Part shown: piece after piece, positions 10,511-24,399 of the stretch
Layout of the letters: each line of letters starts with the position of its first letter
Numbering within the stretch: position 1 is the stretch's first letter
IMG/VR virus record: IMGVR_UViG_3300044630_002989
Span: 1-27,446 of that record
Strand: one strand, 5' to 3'
Length of the DNA stretch: 27,446 nucleotides
Source: a virus
The notes under the pieces: model-generated
Told to the model about the DNA's origin: nothing
Database searches by the model: none
The model's input: only the letters and a program-made list of their open reading frames with translations
Program-made: the position numbers and the translations under genes

Positions 10511-10732
10511 ATGTACAACGAACGAAAAACCAGTGGCATGACGCTGCTGATGCACATTAGCCGTGCACGTGGTAGACTTAAGAAAAGAAACCCAAACGGA
10601 ATTGTTGGAGTTACCGTTGGACAGGCTGAACAAATTATTGCCGAGTTCAAGGATATGAAAGCACAGAGAGACGAGGCTATGCGAATCCTTGGTCTTCGCT
10701 CATTGCCAAACGGTTCTGCTTATCAGAAATGA
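10511..10732 (+). CDS. Small helical protein (73 aa)
   Basis: It lies between the HAD phosphatase and the PAPS-reductase-like gene, overlapping the latter as ATGA. It has a basic central part (ISRARGRLKKRNPNGIVGV) and a helix with AEQIIAEFKDMKAQRDEAM. It may bind nucleic acid or partner the following enzyme. No family was recognised. Confidence 0.5.
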   Translation: MYNERKTSGMTLLMHISRARGRLKKRNPNGIVGVTVGQAEQIIAEFKDMKAQRDEAMRILGLRSLPNGSAYQK

Positions 10733-11820
10733 GCAAGTACAAGAACCACATTGGTAAAAACGTTTACGATGCTGCAAAGGAGCGCATGCATCATATCTAC
10801 GACATCCATGACTCCGTCATGGTGTTGTTCTCTGGTGGCAAAGATTCACAGGTTGTCTTACATCTAGCATGGGAGGTTGCTCAAGAGCGCGGACTTAAAC
10901 AGGTTAATGTCGTCTACCAGCATGATGAGTTTGTTATGAAGTCTATATTAGACCTTGTAAGAAACTATGCTAGCATGCCTTGGGTTAAGATGCATCACCT
11001 TGTACTTCCAAAGATTGGCGTAAGATATGTATTCAACAAGCCAGTCCAGTACAAGCAATGGGACTACAAGAACAGGGAGATTTATATGCCGATACCAGAG
11101 TACGCCATCAGACCCCCAGCGGATATGTGGGAAAACTTCTGGGGTGCAGAGGAGATAGAAAGTTTCCAGTGTGGGTTATTTGAAGGCAAGGTTGCTCAAG
11201 TAAACGGAATCCGTGCATCCGAAAGCCGCTACCGTTGGCGAGCATCAGTTAACAAACTAATCGAGAACTACATCAACTACTCTATATCGGATAAGGCTGC
11301 TACGTTATGTAAGCCAATCTTCGACTGGGAGGAGAAGGATGTGTTTAAGTATCTATACGACAACAAGTTACAGTACTGCAAGTTGTATGATTGGCAGTTC
11401 TTTGCGAAGATGGGTTTAAGAACCAGTCAGCCACTCCACCCAGACAAGATTAAAGAATTAAAGAAACTGAGGCAACTAGACCCACAGTTCTACGACAGAC
11501 TGTTGGCTATCTTCCCAGACCAAGAAATACATGACAGATACTCTGAGGACAGGGACGACGAGAAGATAATCAACACTTACTGCAACGAAGGACTTGTCGG
11601 AGTCTTGAAGTATATCCAAGACTACATTCTTGACAAAGACCTCCAAGCAATGGCATTGTCTCGTGTGTATCAACTCCAACAACTAATGGAGTCTGATAGA
11701 AACAAAGCAATGAACAACTATCCAGTTAAATATATATTGAAGTACTTCATGAGAGGGCAGTTTGGAAAACTGCTTCTTCCGAACAGAACAGGTCACAAAG
11801 AGTGGAAAAATTTAACATGA
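10729..11820 (+). CDS. PAPS-reductase/PP-loop family protein, IbrA-like
   Basis: This 363-residue protein carries a PP-loop SGGKDS at 35-40, the nucleotide-binding signature of adenine-nucleotide alpha-hydrolases (PAPS reductase, DndC, IbrA). Downstream are VVYQHDEF, an RASESRYRWR segment, and a helical C-terminal region beyond 200 (KPIFDWEEKDVFKYL). That architecture matches the phage and plasmid IbrA-type branch (PAPS reductase domain plus a DUF3440-like region) rather than metabolic CysH. The next gene, overlapping as ATGA, is ParB-like, and this pairing is known as IbrA-IbrB. Chemistry in phages is unproven. Roles in regulation or sulfur-based DNA modification are possible. Confidence 0.85.
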   Translation: MSKYKNHIGKNVYDAAKERMHHIYDIHDSVMVLFSGGKDSQVVLHLAWEVAQERGLKQVNVVYQHDEFVMKSILDLVRNYASMPWVKMHHLVLPKIGVRYVFNKPVQYKQWDYKNREIYMPIPEYAIRPPADMWENFWGAEEIESFQCGLFEGKVAQVNGIRASESRYRWRASVNKLIENYINYSISDKAATLCKPIFDWEEKDVFKYLYDNKLQYCKLYDWQFFAKMGLRTSQPLHPDKIKELKKLRQLDPQFYDRLLAIFPDQEIHDRYSEDRDDEKIINTYCNEGLVGVLKYIQDYILDKDLQAMALSRVYQLQQLMESDRNKAMNNYPVKYILKYFMRGQFGKLLLPNRTGHKEWKNLT

Positions 11821-12488
11821 ACGAAAAGAAACTAGAACCAATAGAAGACATTCAATGGATACACGTTGATGACTTAAAGGCTAATCACTATAATCCAAAC
11901 AGGGTGATGAACGCTGAGATGAATCTCATTGAGCGTTCCATTCTGAAGACTGGATGGATTCAGCCAATTCTTGTAAACAAGAACAGAATCATTATTGATG
12001 GGTTCCACAGATGGACTCTATCGCGCTTGTCTACTCAGTTTAAAGAACGTTACCAAGGCAAGGTTCCCTGTGCTGTCTTAGACGTATCAGACGCAGAGGC
12101 TATGATTATTACCGTTCGAATCAATCGTGCAAAAGGAACGCATCTGGCGTTCCGTATGGCTGATTACGTTAAGGAAATTGTTGAGAAACATAAAGTTCCC
12201 ATTGACCAACTTGCTCGTGATATTGGAGCAACACTAGATGAGGTTCAGTTGTTAATGCAGAACGACGTGTTTGCCGCCAAGGACATTGAGAACTGGACGT
12301 ACAGCGAGGCTTGGGTTCCCGCTGAAAGCGGAAGAACACATATGCCAACACTATTTGACATGATTGACGGTAAAGAGGTTATTGAAAATAAAGAAGATGC
12401 ATCTGGTCATTTCAATGATGTGCCAGAAGAAGAAAGAATATTTATCAAGGAACGTCGCCGTCGTCGCATGAAAAAGAAACTTCAATAA
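11817..12488 (+). CDS. ParB/Srx-fold protein, IbrB-like
   Basis: The start is placed at ATG 11817, overlapping the upstream stop as ATGA; a GTG at 11802 is an alternative. The N-terminal 100 residues have the ParB signature in order: NPNRV (26-30), GWIQPILV (46-53) and IIDGFHRW (59-66), followed by a helical region and a very basic end (ERRRRRMKKK). ParB/Srx domains bind or hydrolyse nucleotides (CTP in ParB). In IbrB-type proteins they act with the adjacent PAPS-reductase-like protein. Plasmid partition is unlikely here, as no ParA gene is present. Confidence 0.82.
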   Translation: MNEKKLEPIEDIQWIHVDDLKANHYNPNRVMNAEMNLIERSILKTGWIQPILVNKNRIIIDGFHRWTLSRLSTQFKERYQGKVPCAVLDVSDAEAMIITVRINRAKGTHLAFRMADYVKEIVEKHKVPIDQLARDIGATLDEVQLLMQNDVFAAKDIENWTYSEAWVPAESGRTHMPTLFDMIDGKEVIENKEDASGHFNDVPEEERIFIKERRRRRMKKKLQ

Positions 12489-15047: not shown

Positions 15048-15076
15048 TTGACTTCCTTAAAAAACCTGCTTTAATA
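15048..15076 (+). promoter_or_regulatory. Predicted promoter for the histone-fold gene
   Basis: TTGACT (15048-15053), 17-nt spacer, TTAATA (15071-15076), with 18 nt to ATG 15095. The -10 is identical to that of the promoter at 16116. The short leader CTTCACACCACAAAT has no Shine-Dalgarno. Confidence 0.55.
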
Positions 15077-15094
15077 AAACTTCACACCACAAAT

Positions 15095-15304
15095 ATGGCA
15101 TCTACAAAATACATCAAAACATCGGCTATCAAGAAACTAGCCAAGGGAAAAGGGAAACGCGTATCAACCGAGTTCCTTCTTTCACTTGACGAATACATCA
15201 ACCAGAAGATTGGTAACGCTTGCGAAGAACACAATGGCGGTAAAAAGACATTAGATATTGGTCTTGCCGCTTACTTCTTTGGAACCACAGTAACACGTAA
15301 ATAA
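15095..15304 (+). CDS. Putative histone-fold DNA-binding protein (bacterial-histone type)
   Basis: This 69-residue protein can be laid along the histone fold: a short basic helix 1 (SAIKKLAKGKG, 10-20), loop 1 KRVST (21-25), long helix 2 (EFLLSLDEYINQKIGNACEE, 26-45), loop 2 NGGKKT (47-52), and helix 3 (LDIGLAAYFF). The GKKT tetrad aligns with the archaeal-histone GRKT that carries the Arg-Thr pair contacting DNA. Size and pattern resemble the single-fold bacterial histones related to Bdellovibrio Bd0055. It has its own predicted promoter, and a short membrane-protein gene follows 1 nt later. A role in packaging or silencing DNA is inferred. A plain small helical DNA-binding protein is the alternative. 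Confidence 0.65.
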   Translation: MASTKYIKTSAIKKLAKGKGKRVSTEFLLSLDEYINQKIGNACEEHNGGKKTLDIGLAAYFFGTTVTRK

Positions 15305-17262: not shown

Positions 17263-17682
17263 TTAGTTAGCACCTTCTTGAGCGTCACGAGCAATACCTT
17301 CTTCTGAGACTCTTTTCATAAGAGCCTTCATTTCGACCTTCTGCTCGTCCGTCAGTTCGCTATCTGCATCGACTCCTGCTTCGTCCAGTTCGTTCTCTGT
17401 GAACTCCATGTCAAGGAGGTCAAGTGTCAAACGATAACCGTCTAAAACACCTGCAAGAGTTGCAATGCACTCTTCTTCGCTTTGCTCACCGTTTCCGACA
17501 ATTGAATAGTCGCCTTTTACGTCATTGACGCGGCGAATTTCAAAGTAGTCGAGACCTTCGTGAACCCAGAAAGCACCGACGAGGTACTCTTTGGTTGCGG
17601 GGTCGTAGTGAGACTCTGGCGAGAGGAAGAATTTATTCAGTTCTCTTACGTAGTCGTTGATTGTATCTTGATTTTTAGCCAT
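17263..17682 (-). CDS. Acidic hypothetical protein (139 aa) in the CYTCACCC promoter group
   Basis: The product is strongly acidic, especially after residue 90 (MEFTENELDEAGVDADSE). A strand-rich region lies near 30-60 (EYLVGAFWVHEGLDYFEIRR). No family was recognised. Its promoter and leader (CTTCACCCACACACC before the ATG) match those of recT, DUF669 and DUF932, which suggests co-expression with recombination genes. DNA mimicry is possible for so acidic a protein but is not shown. Confidence 0.6.
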   Translation of the reverse strand: MAKNQDTINDYVRELNKFFLSPESHYDPATKEYLVGAFWVHEGLDYFEIRRVNDVKGDYSIVGNGEQSEEECIATLAGVLDGYRLTLDLLDMEFTENELDEAGVDADSELTDEQKVEMKALMKRVSEEGIARDAQEGAN

Positions 17683-17691
17683 ATGGTGTGT

Positions 17692-17734
17692 GGGTGAAGT
17701 TATTTAATGAAATTGGATAGTCTGTTATTGTCAA
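17692..17734 (-). promoter_or_regulatory. Promoter with CTTCACCC start element
   Basis: Reverse strand: TTGACA (17729-17734), 17 nt, TTCATT (17706-17711), 6 nt, CTTCACCC (17692-17699), and the ATG ends at 17682. It has the same exact spacing as the promoters at 18976, 20757 and 24399. The -35 lies inside the 3' end of the RuvC-like gene. Confidence 0.6.
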
Positions 17735-18197
17735 GCCACCATTTCGCAATTAACAATGCGTCAGTTGTTTGATTAGTCAGACCAGCACAAGGGTATTTCG
17801 ATTTTGCATGCTGAGTCAATACCTTTTTCCATTCTGAGTGTTTCATGTCGCCTCTTTTGCACCCAATGGATTCACGGATTGGCTTCTGCCATACTTGAGG
17901 GACTACTCTTACTGGGATGATGTCGTTAGCCATTAGATACCCAACCATGATACCAAAGGACTCAAACAGTACCGCTATGCGGGACGATGGAATCATTGTA
18001 CCCATGAACTTGGGTGGTTCTTCAATAACTACTGCTCTAAGGTCGTCCGTACAACCAACCGCTTGGTTAAGCACTGGAAGGATGTCCTCTGGCTTCAGCC
18101 CCTTGAGCGGAATCAAAGTAAAGTCTGTACCGTTCTTACAGATACATACTGCTCCCGATGCCCCAGTGTCGATTGCTACAAAGTGGAAGTCGCTCAT
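17700..18197 (-). CDS. RuvC/RNase H-fold Holliday-junction resolvase
   Basis: This 165-residue protein has FVAIDTGASGAV near the N-terminus (Asp10), VVIEEP (Glu59/Glu60) and TTDALLIAKWW (Asp146). These are the acidic residues of a RuvC-type RNase H fold that binds two metals and cuts four-way junctions. Length and the closing DALLIA helix match phage and bacterial RuvC-like resolvases. It overlaps the lysozyme-like gene as ATGA. A role in resolving recombination intermediates before packaging fits the nearby recT/exonuclease genes. Confidence 0.82.
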   Translation of the reverse strand: MSDFHFVAIDTGASGAVCICKNGTDFTLIPLKGLKPEDILPVLNQAVGCTDDLRAVVIEEPPKFMGTMIPSSRIAVLFESFGIMVGYLMANDIIPVRVVPQVWQKPIRESIGCKRGDMKHSEWKKVLTQHAKSKYPCAGLTNQTTDALLIAKWWLDNNRLSNFIK

Positions 18198-18631
18198 TTT
18201 GAGTAAAGGTTGTTAACTCGCTCGCAGGAGTCTTTGATTCGACTTCCGAGGTTCTGATACCCACCGCTGTTCAAAAAGCCCTCAGCGCCCATTCTCCACG
18301 CAGCATAGACCTCTTGTGGGGTTGGCTCCCTCTTCAAGAAGGGTGATAGACGGCTAACGATACATTCAAGGTACGCTTTGGCGTACTTCTTTGATATCTC
18401 CTTGTCGTGCGAATAAACAGCCCAACTATAAGATAAACCCAACCGCTTGCCAGCATCAGCCCAACTAGCCCTGTGCATCTGCCATGCACCTCTTGCTTTA
18501 GAACGGTCGCCAATACTTCTATGGTTCATTCCGCTTTCAACCATTCCGATTGAGTTAATGAGTTTCTCGCTATCCAGCGAGAACACGGTAGTCGCAAATA
18601 TAAAATTAAGTATCAGAAGTCGGAGGCTCAT
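18194..18631 (-). CDS. Secreted lysozyme-like transglycosylase (SLT fold), endolysin candidate
   Basis: Residues 1-18 are a hydrophobic signal (LRLLILNFIFATTVFS). The mature part starts DSEKLINSIGMVESGMNH, where Glu32 in VESG matches the catalytic Glu of soluble lytic transglycosylases. GDRSKARGAWQMH (41-53) fits the glycine/Gln motif, and AYLECIVSRL with an AAWRMGAEGFLNS segment completes the fold. It would cleave peptidoglycan after export through Sec. It lies in a reverse operon with the RuvC-like gene, far from the holin. Confidence 0.75.
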   Translation of the reverse strand: MSLRLLILNFIFATTVFSLDSEKLINSIGMVESGMNHRSIGDRSKARGAWQMHRASWADAGKRLGLSYSWAVYSHDKEISKKYAKAYLECIVSRLSPFLKREPTPQEVYAAWRMGAEGFLNSGGYQNLGSRIKDSCERVNNLYSK

Positions 18632-18944
18632 TATAGTTCTTTATAATCTCAAGGAGGACAGTTTTAGCATCAATCCAGTCCTCCTTTGAAACCTCATGCC
18701 GAACCATGTCAAGCATCATATCTCCACACTTAATAGCCTCGTTAGTCTTACCGTCCGCCAAAGCCTCATGCATTGCCCACCAAACAAGATTAGTGGCAGC
18801 AGCAATCATGTAAGCCTGTTGTGTACCCAATGTCGGTTCACAAAAAGGTTCTATTTCTTTTCCGCAAATTGTACGGTTAGAAAAAGCCAATAGAATACGT
18901 GGGTCGTTATTCTTGAAGCCGTCATCGTCTTCATCCTTTTTCAC
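18606..18944 (-). CDS. Hypothetical protein (112 aa)
   Basis: The best start is GTG at 18944 (MKKDEDDDGFKNND), which lies inside an 18-bp palindrome. The protein has an acidic N-terminus and a long helical body (MIAAATNLVWWAMHEALAD). It overlaps the lysozyme gene by 26 nt. No family was recognised. It is the first gene of the reverse operon with the lysozyme and RuvC-like genes. Confidence 0.5.
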   Translation of the reverse strand: MKKDEDDDGFKNNDPRILLAFSNRTICGKEIEPFCEPTLGTQQAYMIAAATNLVWWAMHEALADGKTNEAIKCGDMMLDMVRHEVSKEDWIDAKTVLLEIIKNYNEPPTSDT

Positions 18945-18960
18945 ATAAATGTATTTATGT
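18943..18960. promoter_or_regulatory. Palindromic operator candidate ACATAAAT-GT-ATTTATGT
   Basis: A perfect 8+8-bp inverted repeat with a 2-bp centre covers the GTG start of the reverse gene and lies 15 bp upstream of the -35 box of the recT promoter. This position would let one dimeric regulator control both divergent units. Confidence 0.5.
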
Positions 18961-18975
18961 CATCCTCCATAACGC

Positions 18976-19018
18976 TTGACAATATACTTCATATCATTTC
19001 TATACGAAGTCCTCACCC
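18976..19018 (+). promoter_or_regulatory. recT promoter with CCTCACCC start element
   Basis: TTGACA (18976-18981), 17 nt, TCTATA (18999-19004), 6 nt, CCTCACCC (19011-19018), then ACACAC and ATG 19025. It is the strongest -10 of the four members of this promoter group. The predicted mRNA leader is about 14 nt with no Shine-Dalgarno. Confidence 0.65.
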
Positions 19019-19024
19019 ACACAC

Positions 19025-19420
19025 ATGAATAACGAAAACGAAGATATTATCGAAATCCCTTCAGTTACGCAAGTAACCAAAACCAGTAACCAAGCAGAGC
19101 ACAACAGCACTCTGTCGTTCTACGGAAAAATCAACGACCCTCTCATTGCCATTAGAGAGATGGGCGAAATGATTGCAGGTAGCGGAATGTTCGGTTGCAC
19201 AAAGGCTGAACAAGGTATGGTGCTTGCGATGCAGTGCCTCGCTGAAGGCAAGGCTCCGTTGAGGGTAAACTCTCAATGCGTGCTGACGCAATGCTTGGAC
19301 GATTCCTTGCAACAGGCGGAGAAGTACAATGGGTTCGTCGTGACAACGAAGTTGTCGATGCACTTTGGTCTTACGGCAAATCGAAAGACGTTCCAATTAA
19401 ATGCTCCATTGAGGATATGA
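19025..19420 (+). CDS. RecT-like annealase, N-terminal part (frame-disrupted)
   Basis: Residues 1-79 match the start of a RecT-type single-strand annealing protein (IREMGEMIAGSGMFGCTKAE; MQCLAEGKAPL). After about 19260 the frame departs from the family and ends in non-homologous residues. The rest of RecT continues in another frame at 19276-19878. Comparison with family layout suggests that about ten codons between EGKAPL and the next EGKLSM block are absent, causing the shift. It has its own class promoter. Either a real disruption or an assembly error is possible. Confidence 0.6.
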   Translation: MNNENEDIIEIPSVTQVTKTSNQAEHNSTLSFYGKINDPLIAIREMGEMIAGSGMFGCTKAEQGMVLAMQCLAEGKAPLRVNSQCVLTQCLDDSLQQAEKYNGFVVTTKLSMHFGLTANRKTFQLNAPLRI

Positions 19421-19878
19421 AAGCCAACGGAGTTGCAATGGACAGGACTGGAAAGTTCTTTAAAACTAATTGGCAGAAGTTCCCACGACAAATGCTCACA
19501 GCACGAGTCATCTCTGAAGCCGTTAGATTACTCGCACCACAATTAGTCGCTGGCGTATATACACCCGAAGAAGTTCAAGACTTTGTAACGGAGAGTAAGC
19601 CAGCATACCAATCAATAAAGGTACAGGTTCAGCCAGTACAGGCTATTGAAAATAAATCAAACGGAAGGCACACCGTTCCAGCAGATACGAACTTACGGGC
19701 AAACTTAAACAAGAGACTGGATGACCTTCTTTTGATTCACGAGCCATCTGCAACAAGGGAGTTAGTTAAACTTGGGTACATCAAGGAGGGTCAAAACTAT
19801 TATGACCTTGATGCCCTTTCCGCTGGTCGTCTACTCGACAACCCAGCAAAGTTTATCTCACGCTTAGAACAACGCTAA
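19276..19878 (+). CDS. RecT-like annealase, C-terminal part
   Basis: The in-frame sequence before the ATG reads VEGKLS, then MRADAMLGRFLATGGEVQW, a conserved RecT-family block. Downstream, FPRQMLTARVISEAVRLLAP and VAGVYTPEEV match the family's C-terminal core. The protein would anneal single strands during recombination. It lies just before the PD-(D/E)XK exonuclease, the usual partner. The N-terminus is encoded in another frame upstream at 19025. The 200-residue frame could be translated separately from ATG 19276, but would lack the family's first 80 residues. Confidence 0.65.
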   Translation: MRADAMLGRFLATGGEVQWVRRDNEVVDALWSYGKSKDVPIKCSIEDMKANGVAMDRTGKFFKTNWQKFPRQMLTARVISEAVRLLAPQLVAGVYTPEEVQDFVTESKPAYQSIKVQVQPVQAIENKSNGRHTVPADTNLRANLNKRLDDLLLIHEPSATRELVKLGYIKEGQNYYDLDALSAGRLLDNPAKFISRLEQR

Positions 19879-19883
19879 ACGTT

Positions 19884-20783
19884 ATGGGAAACTATAAGAC
19901 GGACGATAATACAAAGCAGGACAAGCCTCTTGCGGTTGGCATTCAACAAAATGTTGATGCCCCAGACTACCACCGAGCAATCGGTATTACCAAGTCTGGA
20001 CTAATGATGCTTAGAAAATCCCCTGCACACTACTGGAACTGGTTAAACTCAGAATCCACAGACTCCACCCAAGCGATGAACCTTGGGACTGCTACGCATA
20101 CGCTTCTGTTTGAACCAGAGCGTTGGGCAAAGGATATCCTTATCATTCCTTCTGACGCTCCAAAGAAAGCAACCAAGGCTCAGATTGAAGCAAAGAAACC
20201 ATCACCAGAGGCGTTAGCCTCGATTCAATGGTGGGATAACTTCAAGAAGCAATCCGAAGGCAAATGCATTATTGATGACGAACAATTCATTCAAGCGAAG
20301 GGAATGGTTAATGCCGTCCTCTCCTGCGAAGAAGTCTTACCGTTACTTAAGCACAAGTCTGCAAAGACCGAACTGTCTATTAGCGCCATTGAGAATATTA
20401 ACGGAATCGACATTAAATGTAAGATGCGTTGCGACCTTCTAACAGAAGATGGCAAAACGATTCTAGACCTCAAGACATGTATGGACTCGTCATACGATGA
20501 GTTCAGCAGGACGTTCATGTCTCAAGGCTACTGGATGCAAGCCGCACACTATATTGCGACAGCAAGGCTTGCTGGTATCCCAGTCGAGAGATTCATATTT
20601 GTTGCAGTTGAGAAAGAGCCACCATACTGCGTTTCAATGTACCAGTTGGACGATACCTCATTATCACGGGCATTCGCAATCCGCGAGCGTCTGTTAAAGG
20701 TTCTTGCACACTGCACGGCTAACGGAAAATATCCTGCATCAAATGGTGTTTCAAACTTGACAATGCCGTTCTATATCAATTAA
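19884..20783 (+). CDS. PD-(D/E)XK exonuclease (RecE/DUF3799-like)
   Basis: This 299-residue nuclease carries the typical start YHRAIGITKSGLMMLRKSPA (substrate-binding helix), GTATHTLLFE with His72, and the catalytic core CDLL (Asp184) followed by LDLKTC (Asp195-x-Lys197). That order matches the phage PDDEXK exonucleases that work with RecT-family annealases. It would degrade one DNA strand from double-strand ends so that annealase can act. It starts 5 nt after the recT stop and is probably co-transcribed. Confidence 0.82.
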   Translation: MGNYKTDDNTKQDKPLAVGIQQNVDAPDYHRAIGITKSGLMMLRKSPAHYWNWLNSESTDSTQAMNLGTATHTLLFEPERWAKDILIIPSDAPKKATKAQIEAKKPSPEALASIQWWDNFKKQSEGKCIIDDEQFIQAKGMVNAVLSCEEVLPLLKHKSAKTELSISAIENINGIDIKCKMRCDLLTEDGKTILDLKTCMDSSYDEFSRTFMSQGYWMQAAHYIATARLAGIPVERFIFVAVEKEPPYCVSMYQLDDTSLSRAFAIRERLLKVLAHCTANGKYPASNGVSNLTMPFYIN

Positions 20784-20799
20784 CTATTAACCCTCACCC
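20757..20799 (+). promoter_or_regulatory. DUF669/SSB promoter with CCTCACCC start element
   Basis: TTGACA (20757-20762) lies in the end of the exonuclease gene. It is followed by 17 nt, TTAACT (20780-20785), 6 nt, and CCTCACCC (20792-20799). The ATG at 20823 follows after an A/C-rich, Shine-Dalgarno-free leader of 23 nt. Confidence 0.6.
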
Positions 20800-20822
20800 A
20801 AAATAAATAACACAATACACAC

Positions 20823-21248
20823 ATGAGTAAATTCAAAATCGACCTCAACGCCTCAGACCGTCCAGACTACTTCAGAGAAGAAGGTAACTATGTAGTTACA
20901 GTCTCCAATGTCGAACGTCTGCTGACCCCCAACGGCATTGAGAAAGCAGTAGTCACACTGTCTGACGAAAAGAATCGCTCCATTAAAGATGACCTTTTAA
21001 ATAAGGACACCGTTTACTGGAGACTGAATCAACTCGTCATCGCAAGCGGAATGAGCATCGCCAACGGAACTGAAATGGACTTCGCAAAAAGCGGAGAGTT
21101 TTTCAACTTCGTCAAAGGCTTTGTCGGACACAAGATTACGATTACGCTTAAGAGCGAGTCGTATACCTCCAAGCAAGGAGAGCAAAAGAGTATCCTCAAG
21201 GTCTCCAAGTTCTCTAAAGCGGCTGTCTCCGCTGACTCACCGTTCTAA
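20823..21248 (+). CDS. DUF669-family, SSB-like protein
   Basis: This 141-residue protein has the DUF669 pattern: a strand-rich N-terminal part (EEGNYVVTVSNVERL), then DTVYWRLNQLVIASGM (conserved WRL segment) and a helical end. The C-terminus SADSPF resembles the acidic SSB tail tip ending in Pro-Phe. DUF669 proteins occur next to RecT/exonuclease modules and are thought to bind ssDNA. It has its own class promoter and a strong terminator just after it. Confidence 0.72.
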   Translation: MSKFKIDLNASDRPDYFREEGNYVVTVSNVERLLTPNGIEKAVVTLSDEKNRSIKDDLLNKDTVYWRLNQLVIASGMSIANGTEMDFAKSGEFFNFVKGFVGHKITITLKSESYTSKQGEQKSILKVSKFSKAAVSADSPF

Positions 21249-21260
21249 TTGACAAACAGA

Positions 21261-21295
21261 GTTGGCTACTAAAACCCCGTAGTAGCCAACTTTTT
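21261..21295 (+). terminator. Rho-independent terminator
   Basis: A perfect 11-bp stem GTTGGCTACTA/TAGTAGCCAAC with an 8-nt loop is followed by five T residues (21291-21295). It ends the DUF669/SSB unit. Confidence 0.85.
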
Positions 21296-21316
21296 ATCTT
21301 TCCAGAAATTTAAGAA

Positions 21317-21397
21317 GGTGTCGTTATAGTCTATGGTCTCCCCTCCGTGTGCGGGTGAGGCTGTGTACGTTCAAGGGAACTATACTATAACGGCACC
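21317..21397 (+). ncRNA. Candidate structured RNA/element with anti-leader sequence
   Basis: GGTGTCGTTATAGT (21317-21330) pairs with ACTATAACGGCACC (21384-21397) with one G-U pair. AUGGU/ACUAU and UCCC/GGGA extend the stem inward. The apical part has GTGTGCGGGTGAGG (21347-21360), the reverse complement of the C(C/T)TCACCC-type leaders with one mismatch to the recT leader. No clear promoter was found, and a terminator lies just upstream. It could therefore be a transcribed RNA or an operator copy left by a rearranged promoter. Confidence 0.35.
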
Positions 21398-21419
21398 GCT
21401 ATTTCTAACATAACATTAC

Positions 21420-21839
21420 ATGAACGAATCAAAGGATTCTTACGAAAAAATACTGGCTGACATGTCCAACTTATTGGACACTCTTGCGGCTGCGGCTGGA
21501 GGAGAAATCAAGGTGCCAGAATACATTATGAAGAACGCGGAGCGTGGACTTCAATTAAACAGAGAAGGTTACGGAGGAGACGGCTTAACAGATAAAACAA
21601 AAAAGGAAGCCAGAGATATGGCAAAGGGTAAGGTAACACTTTCCAAGTGCGTCCGAATGGCTGCTTGGTTTGCCCGACACAAGCCAGATACGCAAACAGA
21701 AGGGTTCAAGAAGAGGTCATCTCCAGACTATCCATCTGCTGGTCTTGTTGCTTGGCTCCTCTGGGGTGGCGACGCAAGCGGTTCAATGAAAGCAGCGGAA
21801 TGGGCAGAAGCCCAAGTCAAGCGCATCAGGGGTGAATAA
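21420..21839 (+). CDS. Small phage protein with WALLWGGD-type domain
   Basis: The C-terminal half reads ARDMAKGKVTLSKCVRMAAW, ARHKPDTQTEGFKK, then PSAGLVAWLLWGGDAS. This conserved phage domain (RARxLxxG, RMxxFFARH, AWxLWGGD) is found alone or inside head maturation/virion polyproteins. The role is not established. The 139-residue protein starts 30 nt after the structured element, without a Shine-Dalgarno. Confidence 0.65.
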   Translation: MNESKDSYEKILADMSNLLDTLAAAAGGEIKVPEYIMKNAERGLQLNREGYGGDGLTDKTKKEARDMAKGKVTLSKCVRMAAWFARHKPDTQTEGFKKRSSPDYPSAGLVAWLLWGGDASGSMKAAEWAEAQVKRIRGE

Positions 21840-21844
21840 CTTTA

Positions 21845-21916
21845 CGGTGGGTAGTTCAACGGATAGAACCTCCGCCTTCTAAGCGGATGATTCGGGTTCG
21901 ATTCCCGACCGACCGA
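21845..21916 (+). tRNA. tRNA-Arg (anticodon UCU)
   Basis: Cloverleaf: acceptor CGGTGGG/CCGACCG (one G-G mismatch at pair 5-68), D-stem GTTC/GAAC, anticodon stem TCCGC/GCGGA with loop CTTCTAA (anticodon TCT), T-arm TCGGG/CCCGA with TTCGATT, discriminator A. CCA is not encoded. It reads AGA, a common arginine codon in these genes. Confidence 0.9.
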
Positions 21917-21964
21917 TTTAAATAGTCTTGCAGGAAGACCAAACAGAACAACATTGAGAAGACG

Positions 21965-22510
21965 ATGTCTTCAAATGTAATACTTGTTACTGGTTTTGCG
22001 AGAACAGGAAAGGATACGTTAGCAAGGGCGATGTCGGTCTACAATCCAAAGTATATGCAGGTATCCTTTGCCGAACCTCTAAAGAGAGCGTGTAACGCAA
22101 TCATGGTTCAGTTAGATGTAGAAATAGATTTCTTCAAAGAAGAGGACAAGGTGGCGAACAGAGAAGTTCTCATAGAGGTGGCTAAGTCCGCAAGAAGGAA
22201 GGACAGAGATGTGTTCGCGAAGATTCTTTCCAAGAAGATTGGCGGTCTGCTAGAGATTGGATACTCTCCAGTCATATCGGATTGGAGATACATAAATGAG
22301 CACGAAGTGCTCTTGAGGACATTTGGTAAAGAAAGAATCGTAACCGTAAACATAATGCGAGACGGCTCAAAGGCGGTATCCGAAGAGGAATTAAACTCTA
22401 TAGCAGAGATTACATCTAAAATAGAATTCGATTACTCAAGGTCTTTTGAAGACGGAGGTGTTGAATCCATTAACGAATGGGGATTCAATATAGCGCAAGA
22501 GAGCCTTTGA
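21965..22510 (+). CDS. Deoxynucleoside monophosphate kinase-like P-loop kinase
   Basis: The P-loop GFARTGKDT occupies residues 10-18, followed by a substrate-type segment QVSFAEPLKRACNAIM and VISDWRYINEHE, which contains the DxRxxNE motif of phage dNMP kinases (T4 gp1-type). It would phosphorylate dNMPs to supply precursors for phage DNA. Length (181) is in the expected range. It lies just after the tRNA, and its stop abuts the stop of the convergent HNH gene. Confidence 0.8.
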   Translation: MSSNVILVTGFARTGKDTLARAMSVYNPKYMQVSFAEPLKRACNAIMVQLDVEIDFFKEEDKVANREVLIEVAKSARRKDRDVFAKILSKKIGGLLEIGYSPVISDWRYINEHEVLLRTFGKERIVTVNIMRDGSKAVSEEELNSIAEITSKIEFDYSRSFEDGGVESINEWGFNIAQESL

Positions 22511-22894
22511 TTACTTATAAGACTCTGGGTCTTTAAGTCTTCTCTCGTTGAAGTGACGAATTCTGTGACAGTTGGAACAGAGCATAATGCACTTCTTAAT
22601 CTCGTTCCAAAACTTTTCGGTACTGGATGTTTTTGAAAACTTTAAATCCTTTTTGCTTGGGTCAAGATGGTGAAAGTCAAAAATTGTATAATTGTTTTTT
22701 GATGACTTAATTCCGCAGTCAGTACACTTTTCTCCAAAGTGTTTATAAGCCTCTATTCTCAAAGCCCTCTTCTTGATGGTCTCCACCTTTCTTCTGCATG
22801 ACCTGCAAGTTGTTCTAAGAGTCTTTGTTTGATTAGAATGAAGACTAAAAGCAGTAAGCGGCTTGGACACATTGCACCTGTTGCACTGCTTCAT
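22511..22894 (-). CDS. HNH endonuclease with N-terminal zinc finger
   Basis: The N-terminus has CNRCN and CRSCR pairs separated by about 25 residues (a small zinc finger). The nuclease part has CTDCG, DFHHLDP (catalytic His) and LCSNCHRIRH. It is a typical 127-residue free-standing phage HNH, perhaps mobile. It lies downstream of a reverse terminator and convergent with the dNMP kinase, with no base between stops. Confidence 0.8.
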   Translation of the reverse strand: MKQCNRCNVSKPLTAFSLHSNQTKTLRTTCRSCRRKVETIKKRALRIEAYKHFGEKCTDCGIKSSKNNYTIFDFHHLDPSKKDLKFSKTSSTEKFWNEIKKCIMLCSNCHRIRHFNERRLKDPESYK

Positions 22895-22903
22895 TGCTGT
22901 AAT

Positions 22904-22929
22904 AAAAAAGAAGCCTCCCTTACGGAGGC
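22904..22929 (-). terminator. Reverse-strand rho-independent terminator
   Basis: GCCTCC/GGAGGC (6 bp, loop GTAAG on the reverse strand) is followed by TTCTTTTTT. It lies just after the stop of the zinc-ribbon gene and before the HNH gene, so it ends the LexA-like/zinc-ribbon unit. Confidence 0.85.
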
Positions 22930-22937
22930 AACTGTTA

Positions 22938-23231
22938 TTACGTCTCTTCTTTGTCTTCTAAGGGCTTTGTAGACTTAACCCCTTGCATTGCTATTGGAAT
23001 GTCTGGGTTGATGTCCCAGAACGTCCTGTCTCCGCATGACATACACCATACGAACCCAGTCCACTTTGCTCCATTTGCAAAGAACGTTGTAACCCTTCCC
23101 CAATCATTGTCTCCGCAAACGCATGCGTTCTTTGGGACATACCTTGACAAGTATACGGTTGGAGAGATGAACCCAATTAGTTCGTCTTCCCGCACAGGAG
23201 TATAAACTCTTTTGCCTTGGGGGTTAAACAA
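22938..23231 (-). CDS. Zinc-ribbon protein (97 aa)
   Basis: CVCGD and CMSCGD make a four-Cys zinc ribbon with a Trp-rich region between them. The 5' end overlaps the LexA-like gene by 55 nt. The longest form starts with TTG 23231, and a GTG at 23195 is a shorter alternative. It may bind DNA or RNA. Function unknown. Confidence 0.55.
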   Translation of the reverse strand: MFNPQGKRVYTPVREDELIGFISPTVYLSRYVPKNACVCGDNDWGRVTTFFANGAKWTGFVWCMSCGDRTFWDINPDIPIAMQGVKSTKPLEDKEET

Positions 23232-23428
23232 ATGGCGCGAGCGCGACCCCTTGTTGCGGTAATGTATCCCTTTCGTTCAAGGGCGTACATGTGTCCGCTT
23301 ACAGCATTCGTGCTAGATAGATTTAACCCATCGCACATCTCTCTGTAAGAGGGAGGATATTGTTTCGTACCAATGTACTGGCTTATAAACGTAAGCACCT
23401 TGGTCTGTTGTTGTGTTATATTATTCAT
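23177..23428 (-). CDS. LexA-like winged-helix DNA-binding protein, no protease domain
   Basis: This 83-residue protein matches the LexA N-terminal domain in order: QQTKVLTFISQYI, YPPSYREMCDGLNL, SSTNAVSGHMYALERKGYI and ARAICLT. The S24-type peptidase domain and cleavage site are absent, so it cannot self-cleave like LexA. It may regulate phage genes or bind host SOS-type operators. It follows the DUF932 terminator, so it is probably transcribed from read-through or a weak local promoter. Confidence 0.75.
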   Translation of the reverse strand: MNNITQQQTKVLTFISQYIGTKQYPPSYREMCDGLNLSSTNAVSGHMYALERKGYITATRGRARAICLTPKAKEFILLCGKTN

Positions 23429-23433
23429 ATAGA

Positions 23434-23465
23434 AAGTAAAAGGGAGGGAGCCGAAGCCCCCTCCC
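23434..23465 (-). terminator. Reverse-strand terminator after DUF932 gene
   Basis: GGGAGGG/CCCTCCC flank a UUCG-type tetraloop (GC-TTCG-GC inside), giving about 10 bp of stem, followed by TTTTACTTT on the reverse strand. It sits between the DUF932 stop and the LexA-like gene. Confidence 0.8.
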
Positions 23466-23472
23466 GATTTGA

Positions 23473-24348
23473 TTAGTTGTTAGATGCGTTCTCAGTGAAC
23501 TCGAACAACTCGCTACCAGCCCTTAGTCCTTCAGAAGACAATACACGAAGTACGCCAGTGGTTGAACGTTCGGCAAGGTCGAATCGCTTGTTTGAAATCT
23601 CGTGTGTCAAGTGCTGTGTGGCAGCATTGTAGAGACTCCAAATTGTCCGCTCCTTGTCTTCTTCATATCGTGGTGCTTCCCAAATCTGACCGATTGATTC
23701 AGCAATACGCTCAGACAAAACCTTACGCTTTGACATGTTCTTTAACGCGTTGTGTCCCTGTTTCTGAGTGATAATCGTTTGAGACATTCTGTTGAACAAT
23801 GGCAACGAACTTGAGTAGTTGTTGATTGCTTCTTCTAATCGTGATTGGAAGAACTCAGTGTTGATGGACATCGTGTGCTTCTTCATAACGCTAACAGTGT
23901 TCGAGGGAACAGCCAATCCGTTAGAGCAGATGATTCGGAACATTCCAACTTGGAAGGAAGCACCAATTGTTCCGTCAAAAGAGTTTTGAACCTTTAGACG
24001 AAGAATAAGGTCATCCTTCTTTTTCTCTCCAACGCTGACACGCTTATCAACGAAGTCGTAGATTGCGTGTGCCCGTGCACCGCCGTGGGTAACGACAATC
24101 TTTCGCTTGCGTTCCCCGAGTGTTAACTTGTCAAACAGTTGCTCTGCTTGACCGAAGAATTCGCTGTTCTGCACGACACCGTAACGGCTCGTTACGCATC
24201 CAAGCGTCTTCATTGTATCGGAACGCTGTGTGCCGTAGAAACTCGTTGGGTTCCCAGCAGCATCATATAGCATGACTTTTTCTACGTGGTAGTCAAAGGT
24301 GCTCGATTGGCGTTCAGTGGTTGTATCTTCAGTATTGTGTGTATTCAT
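23473..24348 (-). CDS. DUF932-family phage protein
   Basis: ATG 24348 (MNTHNTED) is chosen over a longer frame to 24450, because the class promoter leader CCTCACCCATACACAT directly precedes it. The 291-residue protein shows the DUF932/phage-plasmid-like pattern: GCVTSRYGVVQNSEFF near the N-terminus, LRLKVQNSFDGTIGASFQVG and RIICSNGLAVPS in the middle, and a helical C-terminus. Members are common in phages near recombination genes; biochemical role is unclear. Co-regulation with recT and DUF669 suggests DNA metabolism. Confidence 0.75.
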   Translation of the reverse strand: MNTHNTEDTTTERQSSTFDYHVEKVMLYDAAGNPTSFYGTQRSDTMKTLGCVTSRYGVVQNSEFFGQAEQLFDKLTLGERKRKIVVTHGGARAHAIYDFVDKRVSVGEKKKDDLILRLKVQNSFDGTIGASFQVGMFRIICSNGLAVPSNTVSVMKKHTMSINTEFFQSRLEEAINNYSSSLPLFNRMSQTIITQKQGHNALKNMSKRKVLSERIAESIGQIWEAPRYEEDKERTIWSLYNAATQHLTHEISNKRFDLAERSTTGVLRVLSSEGLRAGSELFEFTENASNN

Positions 24349-24356
24349 ATGTGTAT

Positions 24357-24399
24357 GGGTGAGGGTGTACAAGTTGATGGAGAAACAACGGCATGTCAA
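24357..24399 (-). promoter_or_regulatory. DUF932 promoter with CCTCACCC start element
   Basis: Reverse strand: TTGACA (24394-24399), 17 nt, CAACTT (24371-24376), 6 nt, CCTCACCC (24357-24364), then 8 nt to the ATG. The -10 is weak, but spacing is identical to the other three members. Confidence 0.55.

Follow-up and report, generated by a model that had tools for sequence, protein, structure and literature searches.

The nearest described case to the sequence unit reported here is that of the Start-Associated Sequences (SAS and ESAS) of Cluster K mycobacteriophages (PMC3203893), which are short and asymmetric, occur as about 11-19 repeats per genome beside ATG starts in the non-structural half, are not common in other phages or in the host, and have an unknown function. 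The SAS, 5'-GGGATAGGAGCCC, holds a Shine-Dalgarno core and lies 3-7 nt from the start codon (PMC3203893). The present unit resembles the SAS in being repeated, linked to ATG and associated with non-structural genes, but it is without the Shine-Dalgarno core (AGGAG), its distance to ATG is 8-44 nt and it is locked to a promoter. Repeated intergenic motifs were also described for PB1-like phages such as JG024, where they were found by sequence only and were suggested to be promoter-related (PMC3008698); they differ from the unit as AT-rich boxes with no described fixed register from -35 to leader. Phage promoters of the sigma70 type, used by the host RNA polymerase, have TTGACA in common with the unit and, as judged from the relatives' units, also the 17-nt spacer and the -10 hexamer, often extended by TGn, whereas the conserved 8-mer at its expected transcript start does not belong to the sigma70 consensus. 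A literature search found no paper joining CTTCACCC with a phage promoter.

The window, that is, the whole stretch of DNA analysed, is a virus record of 27,446 bases without a close match among the described phages. No match was obtained by megablast of 50,697 phage records, and a single-sequence search of viral contigs gave no close protein relatives of the window exonuclease or the DUF932 protein. The pattern TTGACA-N29-CYTCACCC was found at 4 exact sites in the window by a pattern scan (Table 1), as compared with 0.00 expected by chance and none in any of 100 dinucleotide shuffles of the window. The initial annotation had placed four such sites here, each with a perfect TTGACA and a 29-nt gap and each 6-23 nt before a start codon; all of these proved exact, and the 8-mer ends 9, 6, 23 and 8 nt before ATG at sites 1-4, respectively. 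The 8-mer alone occurred 6 times in the window (1.35 expected) and TTGACA alone 29 times (23 expected), and the significance therefore lies in the combination of both elements. The -10 boxes vary, as had also been noted: they are indeed weak in the window, with 2-3 of 6 matches to TATAAT at spacer 17, but good in the relatives. Recognition by sigma70 is thus less secure in the window.

Table 1. Positions of the promoter-like units and of the genes beside them in the window.
Feature	Position	Strand	Description
Degenerate fifth unit	15048-15087	+	TTGACT, 16 nt ending TGC, TTTAAT, 4 nt, CTTCACAC; then CACAAAT-ATG of histone-like gene
Histone-fold-like gene	15095-15304	+	69 aa, basic; homologues at L107, L109, L111, L116, L103, L173 and L194
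Gene behind site 1	17263-17682	-	Acidic protein, no family match
Site 1	17692-17734	-	-35 TTGACA 17729-17734; weak -10 TTCATT; -35/-10 just behind, or within, 3' end of Holliday-resolvase-like gene 17700-18197; 8-mer CTTCACCC 17692-17699; leader ACACACCAT, up to ATG of gene 17263-17682
Site 2	18976-19018	+	-35 TTGACA 18976-18981; 8-mer CCTCACCC 19011-19018; leader ACACAC, up to ATG 19025 (recT)
recT-like gene behind site 2	19025-19878	+	Overlapping frames 19025-19420 and 19276-19878
Exonuclease gene (DUF3799/exo VIII-like)	19884-20783	+	Next gene after recT
Site 3	20757-20799	+	-35 TTGACA 20757-20762, inside 3' end of exonuclease gene; -10 TTAACT; 8-mer CCTCACCC 20792-20799; leader of 23 nt, up to ATG 20823 (SSB-like)
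SSB-like gene behind site 3	20823-21248	+	phrog_378, E 1.8e-6
DUF932 gene behind site 4	23473-24348	-	DUF932, E 8e-20
Site 4	24357-24399	-	-35 TTGACA 24394-24399; -10 CAACTT or TCAACT; 8-mer CCTCACCC 24357-24364; leader ATACACAT, up to ATG of DUF932 gene 23473-24348

A held-out test was done by using a matrix trained on the relatives' sites only, which was then applied to the window (54,806 positions). The four window sites ranked 1-4 of the 54,806 positions with 10.9-23.9 bits, and the position ranked fifth reached 1.6 bits. With the promoter part of the matrix alone, the sites ranked 38, 57, 10 and 2. For the window, this test is free of the selection bias in the collection of the relatives' units.

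The gene names given earlier (recT-like, SSB-like, DUF932 and an acidic protein without family) were retained, with the restriction that the recT-like name applies to the second frame only: of the two overlapping frames only this one matches PF03837 (E 3e-6), and the gene is frame-broken. The junction of the frames is without the residues expected from RecT proteins and is therefore due either to a viral deletion or to an error in assembly. Also in the window, an 83-aa protein consisting of a LexA DNA-binding domain only (E 2e-22) is encoded at 23177-23428 (-), and a PAPS-reductase-domain gene followed by a ParB_N-domain gene lies at 10729-12488 (+), an arrangement which we take to be like that of IbrA/IbrB.

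Relatives were found by searching viral contigs for the pattern extended by AC, by a further scan that gave L010, and by additional searches. The unit is present before a start codon in at least 11 further uncultivated phage contigs, related or partly related to the window, namely G001 (L010/L107), G002 (L062), G003 (L063), G004 (L064), G005 (L069), G006 (L071), L102 and L103 (both with weaker forms), L173, L194 and L124/L211. The scan of related phages that had been proposed as a check was thus positive, and the proposal of a promoter-like unit common to several genes, with the 8-mer at the expected transcript start, is supported. A relaxed pattern occurred in 3-8 copies in each of G001-G006, whereas shuffled sequences gave 0-1 and reversed ones none. 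Several contigs have 4-8 copies, located before ATG starts of non-structural genes, and in G002 and G004 the sites with a downstream frame lie outside the structural modules.

Genes shared by the window and its relatives include those for the exonuclease (26-31% identity) and a small membrane protein, and G001-G006 have more genes in common with each other than with the window. Exonuclease homologues in the motif-carrying relatives are often immediately preceded by the unit, as in G004 and G006; among 30 homologues the unit was found only at L096, L099, L100, L102 and L103. Since the window exonuclease is nearer to loci without the unit (L077-L082, 36-38% identity), the cassette does not simply follow the exonuclease tree: the two may have different histories, or the unit may have been lost in the unit-free loci. 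Single exact TTGACA-N29-CCTCACCC matches in viral contigs numbered 57 and were mostly rejected as chance (one copy, no leader, no homologues), L010 being the only real case among them. The unit was absent among the TTGAC sites listed for phage C75C1, whose terminase and portal are about 31% and 27% identical to those of G004, and it was not found in any described phage that could be searched. A scan of 84,980 genomes with TTGACA-N29-CYTCACCCA-N0-28-CAYATG gave 3 isolated, chance-like matches in a collection from which the host may be absent.

For the analysis of anatomy, nine sequences supplied 51 units; gaps of 27-32 nt and at most one mismatch were admitted, so that spacing and consensus are partly selected; the -35 is TTGACN in all 51 by selection. 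Within these limits, 40 of the 51 units have 29 nt between -35 and 8-mer (sd of this gap 0.6 nt), and 39 have a -35/-10 spacer of 17 nt. The -10 of the relatives is GATACT, TATAAC, TCTACT or TCCACT, in most cases extended by TGn, and is followed by 6 nt up to the 8-mer. From the start of the 8-mer to ATG the distance ranges over 8-44 nt (sd 7.3 nt, 51 units). Since the distance to -35 is nearly constant and that to ATG variable, the 8-mer marks the expected 5' end of the RNA. Among copies in the same genome the 8-mer is 78-100% identical and the spacer 24-61% identical, and for 33 of the 37 8-mers that precede an ATG frame by at most 60 nt the -35 is in register. Some leaders are without the strict 8-mer (CTCAACCC, CTTCTCCC and TTCCACCC), a point against the RNA-tag reading given below. 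We read the sites as lineage-specific, sigma70-type promoters of non-structural genes plus an unstructured 5' leader tag. Few sites with both -35 and -10 in the relatives' genomes are without the 8-mer, and on this account the unit can equally be taken as the promoter and leader used by default in the non-structural half of these genomes.

A regulon for recombination and replication genes, as suggested by the initial annotation, is too narrow a description, since the genes behind the unit in the relatives mostly encode small proteins without known function, the most recurrent one being a histone-fold-like protein of 62-72 aa. The histone-like gene of the window is preceded by a degenerate unit, and its homologues in several other phages by the full unit. 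The 69-aa protein was predicted to fold as helix-long helix-helix with moderate model confidence (pLDDT 71). Its 3 sequence matches in the PDB set (E 0.04-0.06) were all bacterial histones, and so were its best structure matches, HBb and HLp, with a probability of up to 0.82 and E 0.6; on the basis of these matches it is probably a phage-encoded histone-fold protein. This target gene product has the same predicted helix pattern as the prokaryotic alpha3 histones, with HBb and HLp as best structure matches, but it differs from the 'phage histones' described with them, whose C-terminal tetramerisation helix is absent from the 69-aa protein (PMC11390915).

The occurrence of the unit was also determined without the bias of a DNA pattern, at 16 histone-like loci found by protein only. 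It was present at 6 of the 16 (L200, L204, L210, L211, L208 and L209), all of them contigs already found by the DNA pattern; L208 and L209 correspond to G003 and G005, respectively, in which the unit became visible once the correct, later start codon was used. The strict 8-mer was absent from the other 10 loci, some of which have related C/A-rich leaders, which indicates that the strict unit is a feature limited to part of a wider phage group. At L202 and L203, TAA-TCACCCACACAC-ATG stands right behind the upstream stop and just before the histone-like gene, with no promoter; TCACCCACACAC has the same leader letters as window site 2.

The leaders of the 51 units contain 4% G, 40% A and 42% C, and a Shine-Dalgarno core was found in 0 of the 51. 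Shine-Dalgarno sites are also rare in the other genes of these phages, being near, or modestly above, the shuffled level in most genomes. The 8-mer was predicted to be unpaired with a probability of 0.85, as compared with 0.57 in random leaders. The predicted accessibility of the start codon was the same as in random leaders (p 0.25), which speaks against the 8-mer as an RNA tag. TCACCC showed no enrichment before genes without the promoter, and a role as a general signal for translation can therefore be discounted. Immediately after tRNA-Arg, G004 and G006 have a gene whose leader is TTTTCACCCACATTTCCTACCACATG or a variant close to it, very similar to the promoter-borne CTTCACCCACACCTACCACATG of the same contigs and without an intervening promoter; G001 and L103 have a partly decayed leader at the same place behind the tRNA. 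Processing of the tRNA 3' end would create a new 5' end behind the tRNA. These tRNA-linked leaders, which represent one related gene in related phages and have a nearly intact 8-mer in two only, hint at a role in RNA, or could be left over from the insertion of a tRNA downstream of a promoter.

For the function of the 8-mer, a role at the RNA level is favoured over one in transcription initiation, and we consider it about an even chance that a sigma70-type promoter is combined with an 8-mer and leader acting in RNA as an unstructured 5' tag. Under this explanation, promoters of the sigma70 type would drive the non-structural genes in a group of uncultivated tailed phages, and we infer that the host RNA polymerase is used and that +1 is the first base of CYTCACCC; the promoter anatomy, its conservation, the fixed spacing of the 8-mer to the promoter, the depletion of G and the predicted lack of structure are seen in the sequence itself. 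The 5' end of the mRNA would then probably be a fixed, G-free CYUCACCC tag, after which a short leader rich in A and C would lead to ATG with no Shine-Dalgarno site, and the unstructured tag would support a Shine-Dalgarno-independent start of translation or shield the 5' end. The 8-mer had been proposed to be a regulatory site or a leader element; the leader element fits best with the leader, Shine-Dalgarno and tRNA data, and nothing in the data points to an 8-mer-binding co-regulator. A more specific version is put forward with considerable doubt, in which the G-free 5' tag, made by the fixed-register promoter or by tRNA end processing, is read by a ribosomal, host or phage factor for the start of translation or the protection of RNA.

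The 8-mer might instead act in DNA as a transcription-initiation element (in start choice, promoter escape or factor binding beside RNA polymerase) that coordinates these genes, a possibility we regard as serious but less probable. The locking of the 8-mer to the promoter (29 +/- 0.6 nt) and its near absence before promoter-free genes are consistent with such an element, as are the three G002 units that have a 16-nt spacer and still hold 29 nt from -35 to the 8-mer, and the start region of G002, G003 and G005, which is almost all pyrimidine and in this respect unusual for bacterial start sites. Three points count against it: the 8-mer is without dyad symmetry; the LexA-domain gene, the only regulator-like gene noticed near the window sites, is unmatched in the relatives that carry the motif; and the leader is found again after a tRNA gene, where there is no promoter.

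It is unlikely that the 8-mer has no function and was merely carried along in recently copied promoter cassettes. Copies in the same genome do have some short stretches outside the core in common, for example in the leaders of G004 and G006, but -35 and 8-mer have been kept where the spacer, the discriminator and the rest of the leader differ from copy to copy, and this contrast holds in genomes of 44-64% G+C with proteins mostly 28-57% identical. Least probable of all is a small RNA from a hairpin at about 21304-21406 (+), whose apical loop GGGUGAGG would pair with the CCUCACCC 5' ends and control the four mRNAs, for although the hairpin is more stable than every shuffle (-41 kcal/mol, z -4.7), folds better than its complement and has a loop and flank complementary to CCTCACCC plus part of the ACAC leader, no comparable complementary-loop hairpin was found in the motif-carrying relatives, the two further 8-mers of the window can be accounted for by chance (1.35 expected), and the hairpin is without a clear promoter. 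The hairpin lies after the terminator-like stem of the SSB-like gene.

For more than ten years, repeated start-linked motifs have been known in phages with their function unsettled. The present unit is simple, is registered to a promoter and occurs in phages of 44-64% G+C in which Shine-Dalgarno sites are rare, and it thus offers a clean test case for how phage mRNAs start or are translated without Shine-Dalgarno pairing. TTGACA-N29-CYTCACCC before ATG also provides a handle by which a group of uncultivated phages can be collected and their promoters and gene starts annotated. Possibly the unit is a signal, so far undescribed, by which transcription or translation is started, and if the CYUCACCC tag is indeed read by a factor, it would be a previously undescribed, Shine-Dalgarno-independent leader signal.
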